Source: Alphaproteobacteria bacterium
GTDB taxonomy: Bacteria; Pseudomonadota; Alphaproteobacteria; Rhizobiales; CAJQND01
DNA: 64,000 bases
Assembly: GCA_024227565.1 (NCBI GenBank)
Contig: JAAEUE010000155.1
Span: 1 to 64,000, forward strand
Reading direction: 5' to 3'
The notes beneath the pieces are model-generated. The model saw only the letters and a list, made by a program, of their open reading frames with translations. It did not search any database and had not been told where the DNA came from. Numbering within the stretch: position 1 is the first letter of the stretch; every line of letters begins with the position of its first letter. This document shows, in pieces, positions 15,693-56,548 of this stretch. A program made the translations under genes and the position numbers.

Positions 15693-15747
15693 AAAGGCAC
15701 GCTCAAGCAAATAGAGGGTTACTTTTGATTTGCTCTCGCGTGCCTTT
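15693..15747 (-). terminator. Inverted repeat after the haem-protein gene
   Basis: Arms at 15693-15712 and 15728-15747 match at about 17 of 20 positions, immediately after the stop of the minus-strand gene. The stem is strong but the following T-run is poor, so termination may be partial or the structure may protect the mRNA end. Confidence 0.55.
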
Positions 15748-15752
15748 GAGGT

Positions 15753-18221
15753 TTAGTTGACGAGGAACTTGATGGCTGTACGGCCAGCTGCTTCCTGCTT
15801 CGTCACCTTCTTGCCGGTTTTCTTGTCTTTCACCTTCACCGTGGGCACCACTTTGATGGCACGGGTGGCGAACTTTCTGTACTCGCCGATTGAGGTGAAG
15901 GCGTTCTTGGCAAAGTCGTGCTTGATGCCCTTGCTGGCAGCTTTGGTTTTTCTGCACAGGGCAACAACGGTTTCCTTGCCAGGATCCTGCAGTTGGAACT
16001 TGAACTTCGCTTTCTTGCCAGGGAAGTGGAACTCCTTATTGGCTTTCAGGAAGTTCTTCTGCTGGAACTTGTTGGGGAAGATCACCGTGGCCTTGTCCTT
16101 GGCATCCACATTGATCAGGGTCAGGAAGCAGTCCTGCTCTGTCTTCACGGTGAACACTGCATGCTCATGCACCTTGTAAGACGACTTGTCAGAGAACAGC
16201 GCCAGGTGGAATGAACCTGAATTCAGGCGGTCTTTCGCGTCAGGCTTTGCAACACCTTCGGTGGCTACAGCCGTCTCAGTTGCCGCTTCCGCAGAGATCT
16301 TGAGGACTTCACCCTCGGTGACCTGCGGAATGAGCGTTGCGAAAACCACTTCGAAGTGATCGCGAGGGACAAGACCCTGTTCCAGGCGACGCTTCAAGGC
16401 GAAGGCTTCTCCGCCAGCAGCACCGAGCGCGTCTTTGAACTCACCTTCCAGCTGGCCAAATTCAACCGCTGCCGTGCGCATGGTCAGATCTTGACGCTCA
16501 TAGAGGTCTGAGAGAGCGTTGACCATTTCCACATCGTTGAGCTTCAGGCGGGGATCCAAGCCAGCGCGCTTCATTGCGGCGGCCCAGGTGCCCTGATCCT
16601 CATCCAGCATACGCTTCATGGTATTAGCGTCCGGATAGAGTGCCTTAACGGCGTCGCGTGTGGCCTTGGGGAACGACCGTGTCGCCATGACATGTTTCCG
16701 AACGTCATCCTTGGCTTTGCGGATGCCTTGGTCATGACAGCCCAGGCAAGAGATGCCGTTGGTCACAGCAAAGTCCTTGCGGGAAATGTCGCGGACGATC
16801 TCGGTCGGGCCTTTGTTGATCCGTTTGCCATCGGCTGTGTTCAGGTAGTAGGCGTGAAATCCGTTAGGCAGGGAGAAGATTGTCTCTCCGCCATCATGAC
16901 GAAAACTTTCTTTGCCGGTTGGCCCCATGGGAAATGCAAGCAGGCTCTGTCTTTCGCGGTTGCCTGCGAAATCATAGGAGGTCCAGAAAACGCCGTTGGA
17001 AATTGTATGGCGTTCGATCAGCCTGTTGTTCTGGCTGACACCGGATTTTTGGAAGCCGGCGCGGTGGGCAAGGAAGTTTTTGATGTTCGCTTCAACATCC
17101 AAGCCAAGTTGCTTCTGCAGGCCTTGGAAGGTGTCAGGCAACTTCAACAAGGCATGATAGAGTGCCGGACGCGAGGCAGCAAAGGCGAACCAGTCGCCAC
17201 GCACGTAAGGCAACTGCGTATTCGTCGCGGTTTGCAGAAAGCTGAACATCTGCGTGTCTGGCTTGATACCATAGGGGTAGGATGCCAGGATCGTCGTCCA
17301 GTCATTCTCGGTCCATTTCAAGTCGGAAAGATGGAACCGGATGATGCTTCTTGCCGGATCAACGGTCTCGAGCTTCACCACATCGGAATTTTGACTGAGG
17401 CTGTTCAAGAGCTTCACCACTGCTTGGCGGTAAACCTCCATGTTCTTATCAGGTGTGCAGGTGTTGGTGAGGTGAGTGAGGGTAATGTAACGGGTCCCCT
17501 TCACGCGGTGGTCTTGCAGTGAATTCAAATCGTTTGCGATGGCCTGAACAATCTGCTCATCGCTCATAAAGTCATCAGACTTGCACGAGGCGGCCACCTG
17601 TTGACCCAGAGACGACACCCAATCGCGCAAAGCAGCGATTTCGTTGGACGTGGGCGAGGGGAAGCCAGAATCTTCACCGGTCAGTTCCGCATTGCGCACA
17701 TCATAAGGCATGTCGGCCCGCACCGGGTCTGCGGTGCGCTTGATCAGTTCGGACGCGTCCGGGTTGCCTGGCAGCACGAACCTTGAATTTGTCGCCAATT
17801 CATGAAGTTTCAGCACGTTGCCGAAGTTGCTCGCCACTTTCTCTCGCTTGCCCAACTGACCAGCTTGGTGGCAGCGGGCGCAGTGCTTGTCGAGAACGTC
17901 GAACGCTGCCTTTGCAACAGGGTCTTTCGGCGGGTCAATTTTTTCCGCCGCTGGCTGGGTTTCGGCCGCTGCAACCTCGGTTGTCTCGGCTTCTGCCGCT
18001 GCGGGCTGTGTTGCCTCAGCTTCGGTTGCCGCAGGCGCGGTTGCTTCCGATTCGGTTGCCGCAGGTTCTTTCGCCGCAGGTTCGGTTTCGGCAGCAGCTT
18101 CGCTGTTTTGGGCCGTGGTTATGGTTGAATTTGCATCGTTTGCAGTGCTGAGCTGCACCTGCGCGCCGAAAGCTGCGCACGTGAGCATCGTAGTGAGGAG
18201 GGTTTTGGCGAGTTTGGTCAT
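15753..18221 (-). CDS. Exported protein with two c-type haem motifs and C-terminal DUF4384
   Basis: An 822-residue exported protein. After the signal peptide there is an Ala/Glu/Thr/Pro-rich low-complexity spacer (about 40-95), then a cytochrome c-like domain with CARCH (Cys114, Cys117, His118) and a possible Met ligand in ADMPYD. The middle section is all-helical and unrecognised. A second haem motif, CLGCH (Cys492, Cys495, His496), follows. The C-terminus (about 680-770) matches DUF4384 (FLTLINVDAKDKATVIFPN), a module otherwise typical of caspase-linked signalling proteins. ATG 18221 has GGAAG just ahead; a GTG lies at 18233. A perfect Crp-type site is about 60 bases upstream. I infer a periplasmic redox sensor or electron-transfer partner working with the nearby caspases, which share DUF4384. 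Confidence 0.85.
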   Translation of the reverse strand: MTKLAKTLLTTMLTCAAFGAQVQLSTANDANSTITTAQNSEAAAETEPAAKEPAATESEATAPAATEAEATQPAAAEAETTEVAAAETQPAAEKIDPPKDPVAKAAFDVLDKHCARCHQAGQLGKREKVASNFGNVLKLHELATNSRFVLPGNPDASELIKRTADPVRADMPYDVRNAELTGEDSGFPSPTSNEIAALRDWVSSLGQQVAASCKSDDFMSDEQIVQAIANDLNSLQDHRVKGTRYITLTHLTNTCTPDKNMEVYRQAVVKLLNSLSQNSDVVKLETVDPARSIIRFHLSDLKWTENDWTTILASYPYGIKPDTQMFSFLQTATNTQLPYVRGDWFAFAASRPALYHALLKLPDTFQGLQKQLGLDVEANIKNFLAHRAGFQKSGVSQNNRLIERHTISNGVFWTSYDFAGNRERQSLLAFPMGPTGKESFRHDGGETIFSLPNGFHAYYLNTADGKRINKGPTEIVRDISRKDFAVTNGISCLGCHDQGIRKAKDDVRKHVMATRSFPKATRDAVKALYPDANTMKRMLDEDQGTWAAAMKRAGLDPRLKLNDVEMVNALSDLYERQDLTMRTAAVEFGQLEGEFKDALGAAGGEAFALKRRLEQGLVPRDHFEVVFATLIPQVTEGEVLKISAEAATETAVATEGVAKPDAKDRLNSGSFHLALFSDKSSYKVHEHAVFTVKTEQDCFLTLINVDAKDKATVIFPNKFQQKNFLKANKEFHFPGKKAKFKFQLQDPGKETVVALCRKTKAASKGIKHDFAKNAFTSIGEYRKFATRAIKVVPTVKVKDKKTGKKVTKQEAAGRTAIKFLVN

Positions 18222-18247
18222 CTTGGCTTCCACTGAACTGGTTTTTT

Positions 18248-18316
18248 GAACCTTAACAGTTCCAGCGCGTCACGATGTGACATCCGTCACAGCGCGCGCT
18301 GAAACTGTTAAGGTTC
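18248..18316. repeat. Long inverted repeat enclosing a Crp site
   Basis: Arms at 18248-18270 and 18294-18316 match at 21 of 23 positions. The centre of symmetry is within two bases of the centre of the TGTGA-N6-TCACA site. On the minus strand the hairpin is followed by an A-run, not a T-run, so it is not a normal terminator for the cytochrome c' gene. A regulatory cruciform, mRNA hairpin or extended operator are all possible. Confidence 0.75.
18276..18291. promoter_or_regulatory. Perfect Crp-type binding site
   Basis: TGTGACATCCGTCACA fits the consensus TGTGA-N6-TCACA exactly. It is centred about 62 bases upstream of the ATG of the two-haem DUF4384 gene. A Crp/Fnr gene paired with an adenylate cyclase gene lies within 1 kb, which makes it the obvious regulator. 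Confidence 0.72.
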
Positions 18317-18338
18317 GGTCCCCGGTGGGCTAAGATTG

Positions 18339-18788
18339 TTAGTTTTTCTTGATTCTATAATCCTGGTGGCAGGCCTTGCAGTTTTTTGCAAGGGCACCAA
18401 AAGCTGTCTTGAAATCGCCTTCGCCAGCCTTTGCCGCTTTGACTGCGGCAGCCGAAGCTTCCTGGAATTTCGCCGTCAAAGCATCAAATCCGGCTTTGTC
18501 TTCCCAAATTTTCGGGGCCGCTTCAGTGTCTCCGCCCGTTTTGGAGCTATCAGGGAACATGGATGAGAGACCTGATGCAGATGAGTTCATCACACGCATG
18601 GCCAGTTCGGCGGCAAGGCTGTCAAACGGGATTTTCCCTTTTACCATTCCTCCGGCGACGCGCATGGCAGCACCAACATTCTTCATCATGGCCTGCCGGT
18701 TCGCGATGGGATCGCTTGCGATGCTTGCAGTGGTGCCCACCAGACTGGCAACGCAGAAGGCGGCAACTTTAATGTAAGTAGTTTTCAT
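18339..18788 (-). CDS. Cytochrome c'-family protein
   Basis: A 149-residue periplasmic four-helix cytochrome of the c' type. It has a clear signal peptide (cleavage near IASD), an N-terminal RQAMMKNVGAAM helix and the haem-binding CKACH motif near the C-terminus, followed by DYRIKKN. That placement is diagnostic of cytochrome c'/c-556. The start at 18788 has AAAGGATCG before the ATG; an upstream extension has no signal. It lies upstream of the two-haem DUF4384 gene on the same strand, with the Crp site between them. Known family roles are gas (NO) binding or electron transfer. Confidence 0.88.
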   Translation of the reverse strand: MKTTYIKVAAFCVASLVGTTASIASDPIANRQAMMKNVGAAMRVAGGMVKGKIPFDSLAAELAMRVMNSSASGLSSMFPDSSKTGGDTEAAPKIWEDKAGFDALTAKFQEASAAAVKAAKAGEGDFKTAFGALAKNCKACHQDYRIKKN

Positions 18789-19059
18789 ATCGATCCTTTG
18801 CAAAAAACGAGATTCCGGAAAGCAAATGGTAGCGATAGTTTTTCGTCCGCGCAATGAACTTTAGAGGAAAAACCGCGTAATACTATGACCGCAAATGAAA
18901 AATGCTGTAATTGTGACACAGGGCGGAAATCAGGCTTGGTTTACACCCGTTTACGCTGGGGTGTTGCTAAATGGGAACAATGTGGGTCTGATGGAACCTA
19001 GATCGCGGGGGAGACGTCTGCGTGCTCGGCCGGGGAGTGGACGAAACAGGAAAAGAGCG
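18789..19059. promoter_or_regulatory. Divergent promoter region, cytochrome c' and crp operon
   Basis: About 270 bases between divergent transcription units. A lone TGTGA half-site (ATTGTGACA) occurs near 18910, but no full Crp palindrome is seen. No coding frame is convincing apart from the short leader next to crp. Confidence 0.4.
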
Positions 19060-19089
19060 ATGAGCGTGTCAGTAGGTGGTCGAACATGA
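19060..19089 (+). CDS. Possible nine-codon leader ORF coupled to crp
   Basis: An ATG preceded by AGGAAAAGAG opens a nine-codon frame (MSVSVGGRT) whose TGA overlaps the crp start as ATGA. This would couple crp translation to the leader. It may also be chance, since the crp start has its own AGGTGG. Confidence 0.3.
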   Translation: MSVSVGGRT

Positions 19090-19793
19090 GACGGTATTCT
19101 CTTGAGGAAAAGAGCAAGCTGCTGCGTAACCACTTTCTCCTGAAAACCCTCTCCGACGAGGATCTGGAAAAGCTTGCGCGCTATTCACAGGTGCAAGAGG
19201 TGGAACCTGGCACCGTGATTTTCAGCAAGAGCGATGCGGGCGACAGCATGATGGTGATCATCGCCGGCAAAGTGGTGATCGGGTCGACGTCGGTGGCCGG
19301 CAAGGAACTGGTTCTGAACATCATCGGCGAAGGCGAAGTTCTCGGTGAAATCGCATTCATTGACGGCGAAGCGCGCACGGCAGATGCCCGTGCGCTTGAG
19401 GAAACCGTCTATCTGGTGTTGGAGCGGCGTTACTTTCAGCCCTTGCTGGACGAGCAGCCAAAGCTCGCCTCCGAACTTCTGGGTGTTCTGTGCCAACGGT
19501 TGCGCAACACCACGGACCAAATGGAAGACACGGCATTTTATGAGCTCAAAACCAGACTGGCGCGCAAACTCATGGCATTTGCCCAACATTATGGCGAGGC
19601 GTCCAATGAGCTCGACAATGTTGAACTGCCGGTCAACCAATCGGAACTGGGAGCAATGCTCAGCGCAACGCGAGAGAGTGTGAACCGTCAGTTGCGCGAG
19701 TTGGCAAACGCTGGGCTCATAGAACTCAACCAGGGCGCCATCACCATTCTTGACCGCGATGGCTTAGACGACCAGGCGCAGGAGTATTCGTGA
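19086..19793 (+). CDS. Crp/Fnr-family transcription regulator, probable cAMP receptor
   Basis: A 235-residue regulator. The cyclic-nucleotide domain spans about 15-135. Its phosphate-binding cassette reads GEIAFIDGEARTADARA, keeping the Gly-Glu and Arg-Thr features that contact cAMP in Crp. No Fnr-type Cys cluster is present. A long C-helix leads to the winged helix (about 175-225: NQSELGAMLSATRESVNRQLREL). The stop overlaps the cyclase start as GTGA, so receptor and cyclase are made together. The two TGTGA-N6-TCACA-like sites flanking this locus fit the usual recognition pattern of such a helix with Arg-Glu-Ser. cAMP binding is inferred from motif and gene pairing. Confidence 0.9.
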   Translation: MRRYSLEEKSKLLRNHFLLKTLSDEDLEKLARYSQVQEVEPGTVIFSKSDAGDSMMVIIAGKVVIGSTSVAGKELVLNIIGEGEVLGEIAFIDGEARTADARALEETVYLVLERRYFQPLLDEQPKLASELLGVLCQRLRNTTDQMEDTAFYELKTRLARKLMAFAQHYGEASNELDNVELPVNQSELGAMLSATRESVNRQLRELANAGLIELNQGAITILDRDGLDDQAQEYS

Positions 19794-21799: not shown

Positions 21800-22464
21800 G
21801 CATATGCAGACAGAAGAACGTTCGAGCTTGTGTCCTCGCAGTTGGCCTCTCGCTAGGCATGGCTGCGGCTCAACTGGTTTCCATGCCAAGCTCATCGCTT
21901 GCCCAAAGCACGAATGAGGAGGTTGACGTTGTCTTTGTGCCGCCTGTCGATGGCGCGCCGGCGGAGCGGATCGGCGCAGGCACCCGCGGCTCCGGGTCTC
22001 CAAGCGATCGTCTAAAGTTGATCGTCCCGCAGGGCGGTGCGCTCAGTTCCTCAACTTCGCCGGTGCTTTATTGGTGGATAGCCGCGCCCTACAAAGGCAA
22101 GCTGCAGCTCAGCCTTACCCGGGATGGAACCGACGCTCCGTTGCTCGATGCGGTTGAAGACGTTTCCTTGAAGGCAGGCCTGAACACGCTCAGCCTGGGC
22201 GATTTTGGTGTGCGGCTGCAGGCGGGCGACATTTACCGCTGGAGCATTTCACTTGCGGGCGGGGATCTCAATGAATCAGCCTTCAGCTATGTTGAGTTTC
22301 GTAAAACCGACGTTGCCTCTGGTGGCAACCCGGCAAAAAACGCCAAAGCCCTGGCGGGAGCAGGCATCTGGTACGACGCCTTCGCCCTGGTTGCGGCGAA
22401 CGAAAAATTAAGCGGAGCCCGCGATGCCATGTTGGGCCAAGTTGGCATTAAACTGACCAACTAG
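21796..22464 (+). CDS. DUF928 family exported protein
   Basis: A 222-residue protein with a signal peptide (to about residue 37) and a DUF928 domain: RIGAGTRGSG, LKLIVPQGGALSSSTSPVLYWWI, LQAGDIYRWSISL and a final GIWYDAFALVAAN. DUF928 is best known from cyanobacteria, where, from memory, it recurs beside CHASE2 and CHAT/caspase-type proteins; here it sits beside CHASE2 and caspases. It overlaps the cyclase stop by four bases and ends inside the CTAG of the two-hairpin repeat. A periplasmic partner or ligand of the CHASE2 sensor is a reasonable inference. Confidence 0.82.
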   Translation: MSICRQKNVRACVLAVGLSLGMAAAQLVSMPSSSLAQSTNEEVDVVFVPPVDGAPAERIGAGTRGSGSPSDRLKLIVPQGGALSSSTSPVLYWWIAAPYKGKLQLSLTRDGTDAPLLDAVEDVSLKAGLNTLSLGDFGVRLQAGDIYRWSISLAGGDLNESAFSYVEFRKTDVASGGNPAKNAKALAGAGIWYDAFALVAANEKLSGARDAMLGQVGIKLTN

Positions 22465-22567
22465 AGCTTATTCCGCTCAGGTTGAGCGGAATAAGCTCCA
22501 GATTATCGTTACGAACGAGCAACTTATCTCCGACGAGACGTAACCCTCTGATCGGAGGTTGCTCTAG
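22461..22567 (+). repeat. Two-hairpin dispersed repeat, copy 1
   Basis: About 107 bases bounded by CTAG at each end. The first hairpin (22464-22498) has a perfect 16-base stem and three-base loop. The second (22517-22564) has GAGCAAC/GTTGCTC outer arms. The inverted copy at 56441-56548 shares most of the sequence. It sits between convergent DUF928 and caspase genes and supplies the DUF928 stop codon, and could act as a two-way terminator. The CTAGAGC end resembles small palindromic repeats of Rhizobiales. Confidence 0.85.
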
Positions 22568-22579
22568 GGCATGTGTGGC

Positions 22580-24094
22580 TTATTTGACGATTTCATACTC
22601 TAGCGCACCCAAAGACCAACGGACGGCGCGGTTCTTCTTGTCCTTGCGGTGAACTGCCAAGAGATTGGAGGCGAGGTCGGTGACGAACTCCTCTGAATTG
22701 GGCACCACCGCTATCGCACGGTTGGCCGCGAGCAGTTGGTCAAGAGGCACTTTGTCTTCGGTCACGATGGCCAAAAGCTTGCCCCGGCCAAGCGGCTTGC
22801 CGGCTGCAAACGCGAACCCATAATAGTCATCCGGAATGGTGATCTTGCGGCCCGGCACGATCTCATGGTCACGCCCGTTCTGCAACATGATATCGTTCGG
22901 AATGAGCTGAGTAACTTCGCCGTTTGCGTTGACATCCAGGAGAATGAGTGAACCGGGTCTCTTCGCGGTCACCGATATTCTGAATTCCTGGCCAAGGTGC
23001 AGAGTGCCGCCCGGTGACAGTTCAATGTGCACATCCGCATCATTCGATTGAACAAGAACTTCGGCGACAGCTTCAGCGGCGCCGGCTTCAGGTTTGCTGG
23101 GCGGCTTTTCTGCGGTCTCAGTTGTCGTCTCCTCGCTGCCACCAGACGCCGGCTCGGCGGCAACCGGAACAATCGCCCGGGACAGCGCGCTTGGGTGAGA
23201 TTCCAATGTGGGTGTAAATCCAAGCTGGCTGCAGCGCGGGTTGGTCTTGCAATATTCTGCGGCTTCAATGCGCAGATAGGCGATCAGTTCGGCGTGGGTC
23301 ACGGTGCCGTTCTTGTTCTTGTCGGCCAGCTTCTTGCCAACCCCGTTGATGAAATTGCGGGTGAACACGCCGCCACCCAGCGTGTCCCAGGAAAACTGGT
23401 TGGCTGAGGCTGCAGACCAAATCTTCAACTTGCTGGCAGACTGCAGAAAACTTGCCTCGCCCCGGTGCGCGCGAACCTGATCAGAGGTTGGCGCGGCACC
23501 TCTTGTGCTCAAATCTGGAATGAAGGTTCTTGCTTGATCTTCGGATGTACCGGCGTCCTGTTCGGCCACGCCGCGTGAAATCGTGCCGGAATGACAGGAA
23601 TCGATGATCACGGTCAGGTCCCGGTCGGACATCTGGGTCAGAATGGCGCCGAACTCGTCGTCGGTGATCTGGTTGCCGCCCTCTTTCGTGGTGTCGATCG
23701 GCGACAGGGTTTCGTCCAAGCCGTCCTTTTCATCACTGTTGTTGTCCGGCAGCTGACTGCCATGGCCGGAGTAGTAGATGAACACCTTGTCGCCCGCCTT
23801 GGTGGAGCGGATCAGCCAGTTGTTCATGGTGCGCAGCAGGTTCTTGCGCGTTGCCTGGCTGTCTTTGAGAACCGCGATTTCATCGGTCCGGTAGCCCATA
23901 TGATCCTTCAGGAACTTCTCCATCCGGACCAGATCGCGCGGCGGCCCCACCAGAGGGCGAATATTCTGATAGGCACCAATGCCGATAAGCAGCGCTTTTT
24001 GACTGGCCTCAGCCGGAGACGGCAGTGCACTGCATGCGGCAACGGCCCCGGCAACGAGACTTAGGGCGAGGGTATATGATCGGCGAAACTGCAT
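22580..24094 (-). CDS. Exported caspase-like protease (peptidase C14) with EF-hand and DUF4384
   Basis: A 504-residue metacaspase-type protein. The N-terminus has a hydrophobic segment with a possible lipobox (VAAC, Cys21). The caspase domain (about 32-250) holds the dyad His111 (YYSGHGSQ) and Cys167 (DSCHSGT). DEKDGLDETLSPID matches the acidic S1-pocket region of metacaspases, predicting Arg/Lys specificity. A canonical 12-residue EF-hand loop (DKNKNGTVTHAE, 258-269) follows. The C-terminus (about 350-450) is DUF4384-like (SLILLDVNANGEVTQLIPND). It follows the other caspase gene by 14 bases. Ca2+ control and periplasmic action are inferences. Confidence 0.9.
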   Translation of the reverse strand: MQFRRSYTLALSLVAGAVAACSALPSPAEASQKALLIGIGAYQNIRPLVGPPRDLVRMEKFLKDHMGYRTDEIAVLKDSQATRKNLLRTMNNWLIRSTKAGDKVFIYYSGHGSQLPDNNSDEKDGLDETLSPIDTTKEGGNQITDDEFGAILTQMSDRDLTVIIDSCHSGTISRGVAEQDAGTSEDQARTFIPDLSTRGAAPTSDQVRAHRGEASFLQSASKLKIWSAASANQFSWDTLGGGVFTRNFINGVGKKLADKNKNGTVTHAELIAYLRIEAAEYCKTNPRCSQLGFTPTLESHPSALSRAIVPVAAEPASGGSEETTTETAEKPPSKPEAGAAEAVAEVLVQSNDADVHIELSPGGTLHLGQEFRISVTAKRPGSLILLDVNANGEVTQLIPNDIMLQNGRDHEIVPGRKITIPDDYYGFAFAAGKPLGRGKLLAIVTEDKVPLDQLLAANRAIAVVPNSEEFVTDLASNLLAVHRKDKKNRAVRWSLGALEYEIVK

Positions 24095-38055: not shown

Positions 38056-38140
38056 CCCCGCGTCCCTGCGAAAGCAGGGACCCATTGGACCAACCCGCCC
38101 GCTCAGAGCTATGGACCCCTGCTTTCGCAGGGGTGCGGGT
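38056..38140. terminator. Long hairpin repeat between convergent genes
   Basis: Arms at about 38057-38081 and 38113-38139 are near-perfect complements built on CCTGCGAAAGCAGG. The element fills the gap between the convergent HerA-like and zapE genes and probably terminates both. Related copies lie near 34530 and 45336. Confidence 0.75.
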
Positions 38141-40124: not shown

Positions 40125-40501
40125 TACCTCCTAACGCAAGTTCCGGCTTCACGCCGGCAGGAGGTTATTCAGAAAAGAACAGCCATCTAGACCGGCACCG
40201 CAACGCAAACGCACCTGCACTCACATTATTCGCGCCCCTACGCCACCCTTCCCCTCTTATGCTTAACTTTAAGATGGTGCGCGGAATTGGTTAATGCGGG
40301 ATTAAGCTTCAACAGACGTGATTACACACAAACGTGAAAAGGGCGCATTCGTCTCAATTGACGTTATTCCTCATCCATGCCGTCCTCGGGCTTGACCCGA
40401 GGACCCGCTGCCACAAGCTCTAGGCCCTGCCGCATGGGCCCTCGGGTCAAGCCCGAGGGCTACATTCAGACAGTTTTGATCACATCTAAATTCGCCGCGT
40501 T
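40125..40501. other. Intergenic region with a paired palindromic repeat
   Basis: A 377-base gap. Apart from the CCTCGGG repeat pair near 40384-40458 it is AT-rich (about 40230-40350) and non-coding. The promoter of the small exported protein gene probably lies in its left part. Confidence 0.5.
40384..40458. repeat. Paired 19-base palindromic repeats
   Basis: CCTCGGGCTTGACCCGAGG at 40384-40402 recurs as its exact reverse complement at 40440-40458. Each unit is itself a 7-base-arm hairpin. This is a typical alphaproteobacterial dispersed palindrome and may end transcription of the MMSDH gene, whose stop is 44 bases away. Confidence 0.75.
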
Positions 40502-56440: not shown

Positions 56441-56548
56441 TAGAGCAACCTCCGATCAGATGGTTACGTATGAGCGGAGATAAGTTGCTCGCCAGTAAAG
56501 ATAATCTGGGGCATCTTCCGCTCAAAATTTGAGCGGAAGTTGCCCTAG
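56441..56548 (-). repeat. Two-hairpin dispersed repeat, copy 2 (inverted)
   Basis: This is the reverse-complement relative of the element at 22461-22567. It contains a 12-base-arm hairpin at 56515-56539, and the GAGCAAC/GTTGCTC hairpin at 56443-56490 with a conserved TCTGATCGGAGGTTGCTCTA end (read on the minus strand). It sits between the binding-protein and ATPase genes. The first-hairpin sequences differ between copies by paired changes that keep the stem. Confidence 0.85.

Follow-up and report, generated by a model that had tools for sequence, protein, structure and literature searches.

The mchA promoter is a class II Crp promoter with an extended -10 element (PMC12360894). The locus described here resembles promoters of the galP1/mchA type in carrying a consensus TGTGA-N6-TCACA box and, 20-21 nt past it, a TGn-extended -10-like hexamer. 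It differs in that the -10-like element is embedded in one arm of a palindrome that has the Crp site at its centre, and in that the hexamer is poor and the promoter a predicted one. Among alphaproteobacteria, the cGMP-Crp regulator CgrA of Rhodospirillum centenum protects exactly TGTGA-N6-TCACA and is co-located with genes for cyclase subunits (PMC4681086). A Crp homologue, the same motif and adjoining cyclase genes are found together here as well, but the partner is a CHASE2 cyclase, with cAMP or cGMP as the putative ligand, and the presumed target is a cytochrome gene. In Sinorhizobium meliloti, which belongs to the same order, the Crp-like regulator Clr works with CHASE2-domain cyclases (PMC10127613, PMC13001267) and has the consensus HGTYHCNNNNGRWACA (PMC10127613). 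The pairing of a Crp-like regulator with a CHASE2 cyclase is shared, whereas the box at this locus, with a G at the position that is Y in the Clr consensus, conforms to the E. coli-type motif; this mismatch rules out an S. meliloti Clr-type box.

Operons of E. coli are known to have hairpins without a U-tract between their genes that protect the upstream segment; a classical case is pufBALMX, from Rhodobacter capsulatus (PMC5927463). The structure examined here is likewise a stable stem without a U-tract between same-strand genes, as in malE-malF and pufBALMX (PMC5927463), but its tip is a conserved Crp-type box and its effect on decay is putative. It shares with repetitive extragenic palindromes its intergenic position and palindromic form. 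The genome contains two dispersed palindrome families, but this element is a single-copy sequence, and its occurrence only once rules out a REP-type element. No description of a Crp site within an intercistronic hairpin turned up in the literature library searched. We favour, with a probability of roughly 0.55, an account in which the box is a Crp-type activator site serving an internal class II promoter of the DUF4384 gene, and in which the palindrome arms act as a hairpin in read-through RNA.

The palindrome and its Crp-type box

The window, by which we mean the whole 64-kb stretch of DNA that was analysed, comes from a Hyphomicrobiales bacterium and contains a 69-base inverted repeat. This repeat takes up the intergenic space that separates a cytochrome c' gene from a gene for a DUF4384 c-type cytochrome; both genes are on the minus strand and lie 117 nt apart (Table 1).

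Table 1. Coordinates of features at the locus, numbered from the first base of the window.
Feature	Position	Strand	Basis or remark
Inverted repeat that follows the DUF4384 gene; may form a hairpin at the end of the operon	15693-15747		Palindrome scan
Presumed target, lying downstream; encodes a DUF4384 protein that has two CxxCH motifs	15753-18221	-	Pfam DUF4384, E 9e-20
Near-perfect inverted repeat, sense-RNA hairpin	18248-18316	-	31 pairs closed by a loop of 4 nt; occurs once in the genome
Candidate extended -10 within the 3' arm: TGTTAAGGT, with TGTTAGGGT as its G001 counterpart	18250-18258	-	Putative; hexamer starts 20 nt past the box
Perfect Crp-type box TGTGACATCCGTCACA	18276-18291		TGTGA-N6-TCACA; ten specified bases same in G001
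Block of 19 bp, ATCTTAGCCCACCGGGGAC, following the cytochrome c' stop codon and preceding the hairpin	18318-18336	-	Identical in G001
Cytochrome c' gene, upstream of the repeat	18339-18788	-	Pfam Cytochrom_C_2, E 9e-32
Crp/Fnr-family regulator, recognition helix RESVNR	19086-19793	+	91% identical in G001
CHASE2 adenylate/guanylate cyclase, overlapping the regulator stop codon	19790-21799	+	Pfam CHASE2 7e-44, Guanylate_cyc 2e-16

The repeat spans exactly the 69 bases given in the original prediction. Its arms, put there at 23 bases, are real and measure 22 nt each (18248-18269 and 18295-18316), with 95% complementarity, and the description of box and repeat as nearly concentric is accurate, since their dyad centres (18282 and 18283.5) lie 1.5 bp apart. 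RNA folding gives -50.7 kcal/mol (z -8.8) for the minus-strand, sense transcript of the repeat and a slightly weaker structure for the plus-strand RNA (-47.3, z -8.5); the fold was matched by 0 of 200 shuffles. Exact arms of at least 16 nt were absent from five trials of Markov-1 random 64-kb sequence. Several other long palindromes occur within the window, from which alone the palindrome background was estimated. An intrinsic terminator is ruled out because neither strand has a U-tract 3' of the stem: the minus strand, for which the same had been claimed before, reads AAAAAACC and the plus strand GGTCCCC, and a terminator consensus scan found none there. An Rfam search returned only sub-threshold matches to microRNA precursors, as with any hairpin.

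The box at the tip of the structure is two-fold symmetric, matches TGTGA-N6-TCACA without a mismatch, as had been predicted, and is the only perfect example in the window; a search that tolerates one mismatch gives two matches against 1.55 expected. The window scan found no perfect box before the cytochrome c' gene itself, a point against the favoured reading. At the genome scale the motif outnumbers a reversed-pattern control in all three genomes compared (12 v 3, 9 v 1 and 13 v 0). None of the remaining 11 perfect boxes of the window's genome lies within a long palindrome, which means that members of the regulon do not in general carry such a hairpin.

Conservation of box and hairpin

The gap has a homologous counterpart in the one same-genus genome compared (G001), where the genes are arranged in the same order. 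This is the comparison that had been proposed as a check, and the G001 gap retains both the box and the folding (hairpin at about 2485-2554 of L031), again a stable sense-strand stem without a U-tract between same-strand genes. The earlier view of a Crp-type site held within a structure upstream of a haem-protein gene is thereby strengthened. The two genomes are well diverged at this locus: 4-fold degenerate sites of the neighbouring genes are just 46% identical. Conservation of the box, and likewise of the 19-bp block at 18318-18336, far exceeds that background, and the constancy of the ten specified bases of the box amid a rewritten stem counts in favour of a Crp site. The 19-bp block, which lies upstream of the box, is left unexplained by the promoter reading and counts against it.

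Changes to stem pairs were counted by hand from a structure-based alignment. The tip, six base pairs of TGTGAC/GTCACA with a 2-nt bulge, is the same in both species. Among the 11 pairs of the inner stem, four are unchanged, two have one-sided changes, five show two-sided compensatory changes and none is broken; the 14 pairs of the outer stem comprise 11 unchanged, one with a one-sided change and two broken. The 3' outer arm (AACTGTTA[A/G]GGTTC) differs from that of the congener by one change and the 5' outer arm by three, which suggests that the 3' arm, in which the candidate extended -10 lies, is constrained beyond pairing. When only the 17 nt after the box were shuffled in the G001 sequence, the observed energy was reached in 0 of 2000 trials. 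The three non-Watson-Crick pairs that survive take the form of G-U in the sense strand and would be A-C on the other strand, a weak hint that pairing is being kept in RNA rather than in DNA. The hairpin is known in two species only, and the covariation rests on one comparison. The same comparison bears on two details of the original prediction. GTCAC/GTGAC motifs do recur three times in the centre (18269-18273, 18277-18281 and 18286-18290), but the copy at 18269-18273 is absent from the congener, which reads GTGCGATGTGAC. The idea of an extended two-dimer operator loses its footing with that copy, as the arms hold no second conserved pair of TGTGA half-sites outside the box.

Of 397 genomes from the order, 44 encode relatives of the DUF4384 protein (E <= 1e-60), and a profile search of genome contigs with a two-row alignment of the protein recovered 12 loci. 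One of these, L035 in a genome of another family (G143), encodes an orthologue with 65% protein identity. The order there is cytochrome c', an extra cytochrome gene, a gap with the box and the DUF4384 gene; the box, TGTGACACAGATCACC, has one mismatch, and sliding RNA folds revealed no comparable hairpin. A box without a hairpin and with an altered upstream order indicates that the box goes with the DUF4384 gene, independently of the palindrome. The site thus stands before the orthologous gene in perfect form in G001 and with one mismatch in G143. In more distant orthologues the region near the start codon contains no match to the box, even with two mismatches allowed. Regions upstream of some of these also reach -40 or below in sliding folds, so that energy alone is not evidence there.

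These data bear directly on an explanation that places the function mainly in RNA, namely an intercistronic hairpin of the malE-malF or puf type that stabilises the cytochrome c' message of a two-gene operon, with TGTGAC/GTCACA as a mere palindromic end of the stem. The close spacing of the same-strand genes, the very stable fold without a U-tract in both species, the compensatory inner stem with its sense-strand G-U rather than A-C pairs, and the protection of upstream operon segments by such hairpins in E. coli and pufBALMX (PMC5927463) all speak for it. It does not explain, however, why the box sequence is kept while the adjoining stem changes, why a near-perfect box precedes the G143 orthologue where there is no comparable hairpin, or why the motif is enriched genome-wide. 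We therefore regard it as unlikely as the principal explanation.

A predicted promoter and its alternatives

Beyond the box lie -10-like hexamers in the window genome, G001 and G143 (TAAGGT, TAGGGT and TACATA, at 20, 21 and 20 nt, respectively). Class II Crp promoters, with the activator centred at -41.5, have 21 nt between box and -10, and the spacing to these candidate hexamers is close to that geometry. The hexamers are weak, that of the window being poor (3/6), and a consensus promoter scan found nothing at the locus. TAnnnT at 20-21 nt past the boxes is in small excess, at 5 of 32 oriented boxes, a count that includes this locus and its orthologue.

According to the mechanism we favour, a Crp-family regulator, probably the neighbouring one, would bind the box together with cAMP or cGMP from the partner cyclase, and RNA polymerase would use the extended -10-like sequence, read from 18258 to 18250, to start transcription at a putative site near 18242. 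In the transcript that reads through from the cytochrome c' gene, the arms of the palindrome would fold into a strong hairpin without a U-tract, which may delimit and shield the cytochrome c' message at its 3' end and decouple this message from the DUF4384 gene. With a start near 18242, the Crp-driven transcript would begin beyond the hairpin, and the hairpin would form in read-through RNA only. The mRNA of the Crp target would then contain no hairpin for Crp to block, unlike in the original prediction.

A less likely extension is that a single palindrome has been selected twice, as DNA for a Crp site with its -10 element and as RNA for a decay or processing hairpin, with Crp bound at the tip excluding read-through and so choosing the output. 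If so, one short palindrome would meet the constraints of protein binding, promoter function and mRNA structure together, the box sequence would be fixed with the stem free to vary as long as pairing persists, and the cytochrome c'/DUF4384 pair would be tied to the adjoining Crp-cyclase module. Both components are of known kinds and the interest lies in their overlay, an arrangement that is neat and testable and not very surprising.

Activation itself is the likelier mode of action rather than an observed one. Crp-family proteins can also repress, and the position of the box, past the end of one gene and ahead of a second gene of like orientation, would suit a roadblock or repressor operator acting on transcription from the cytochrome c' gene. 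The spacing to the -10-like sequence nevertheless fits class II activation in three genomes, and in G143 the box stays with the DUF4384 gene despite a different upstream order, which leaves repression a doubtful alternative to the activator site.

It is improbable, in our assessment, that only the box matters and that template-switch mutation around it produced the arms as a neutral side effect. Template switching in replication creates hairpins and can keep their arms complementary without selection (PMC8794818), the hairpin is restricted to one genus, and the left outer arm has drifted (3/14 changes, two pairs broken). Against neutrality, the stem is highly stable in both species despite the low identity at neutral sites, an argument tempered by the fact that template switching could itself account for this stability. 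A DNA switch, in which supercoiling would extrude the palindrome as a cruciform that hides box and -10 while Crp holds the linear form, seems very improbable, because the long arms, small central loop and position of the box at the very tip are outweighed by a GC-rich centre and asymmetric bulges that disfavour extrusion, by the G-T positions and two broken pairs tolerated in G001, and by the location of the other 11 perfect boxes outside long palindromes.

The neighbouring regulator and other sites in the window

The regulator and CHASE2 cyclase genes form a pair divergent from the cytochrome c' gene. The recognition helix RESVNR of the regulator aligns with RETVNK of the Mycobacterium tuberculosis Crp homologue and is unchanged in G001, and this adjacent protein is a candidate for binding the box. 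The divergent gap between the cytochrome c' and regulator genes (18789-19085) carries the conserved patches ATTACAGC, GTCATAGT and ATCGCTACCATTTGCTT, and contains no perfect Crp box. On the far side of the regulator-cyclase pair, a gene at 22580-24094 encodes a caspase-like peptidase (Peptidase_C14) with a DUF4384 domain.

Both congeners share a further perfect box of identical sequence, TGTGATTTCATTCACA, at about position 1501-1516 of L024 and L077. In the window's genome it stands directly before a gene of about 490 codons and likely marks another member of the regulon.

Two other long palindromes of the window lie at 38057-38139 and 40377-40465. The former belongs to a dispersed palindromic repeat family, with some 40 related copies elsewhere in the genome at 81-88% identity. 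A further palindrome, TTCCGCTCA-N-TGAGCGGAA, occurs at 22461-22501 and 56506-56548, with 46 exact copies in the genome against none for the reversed control.
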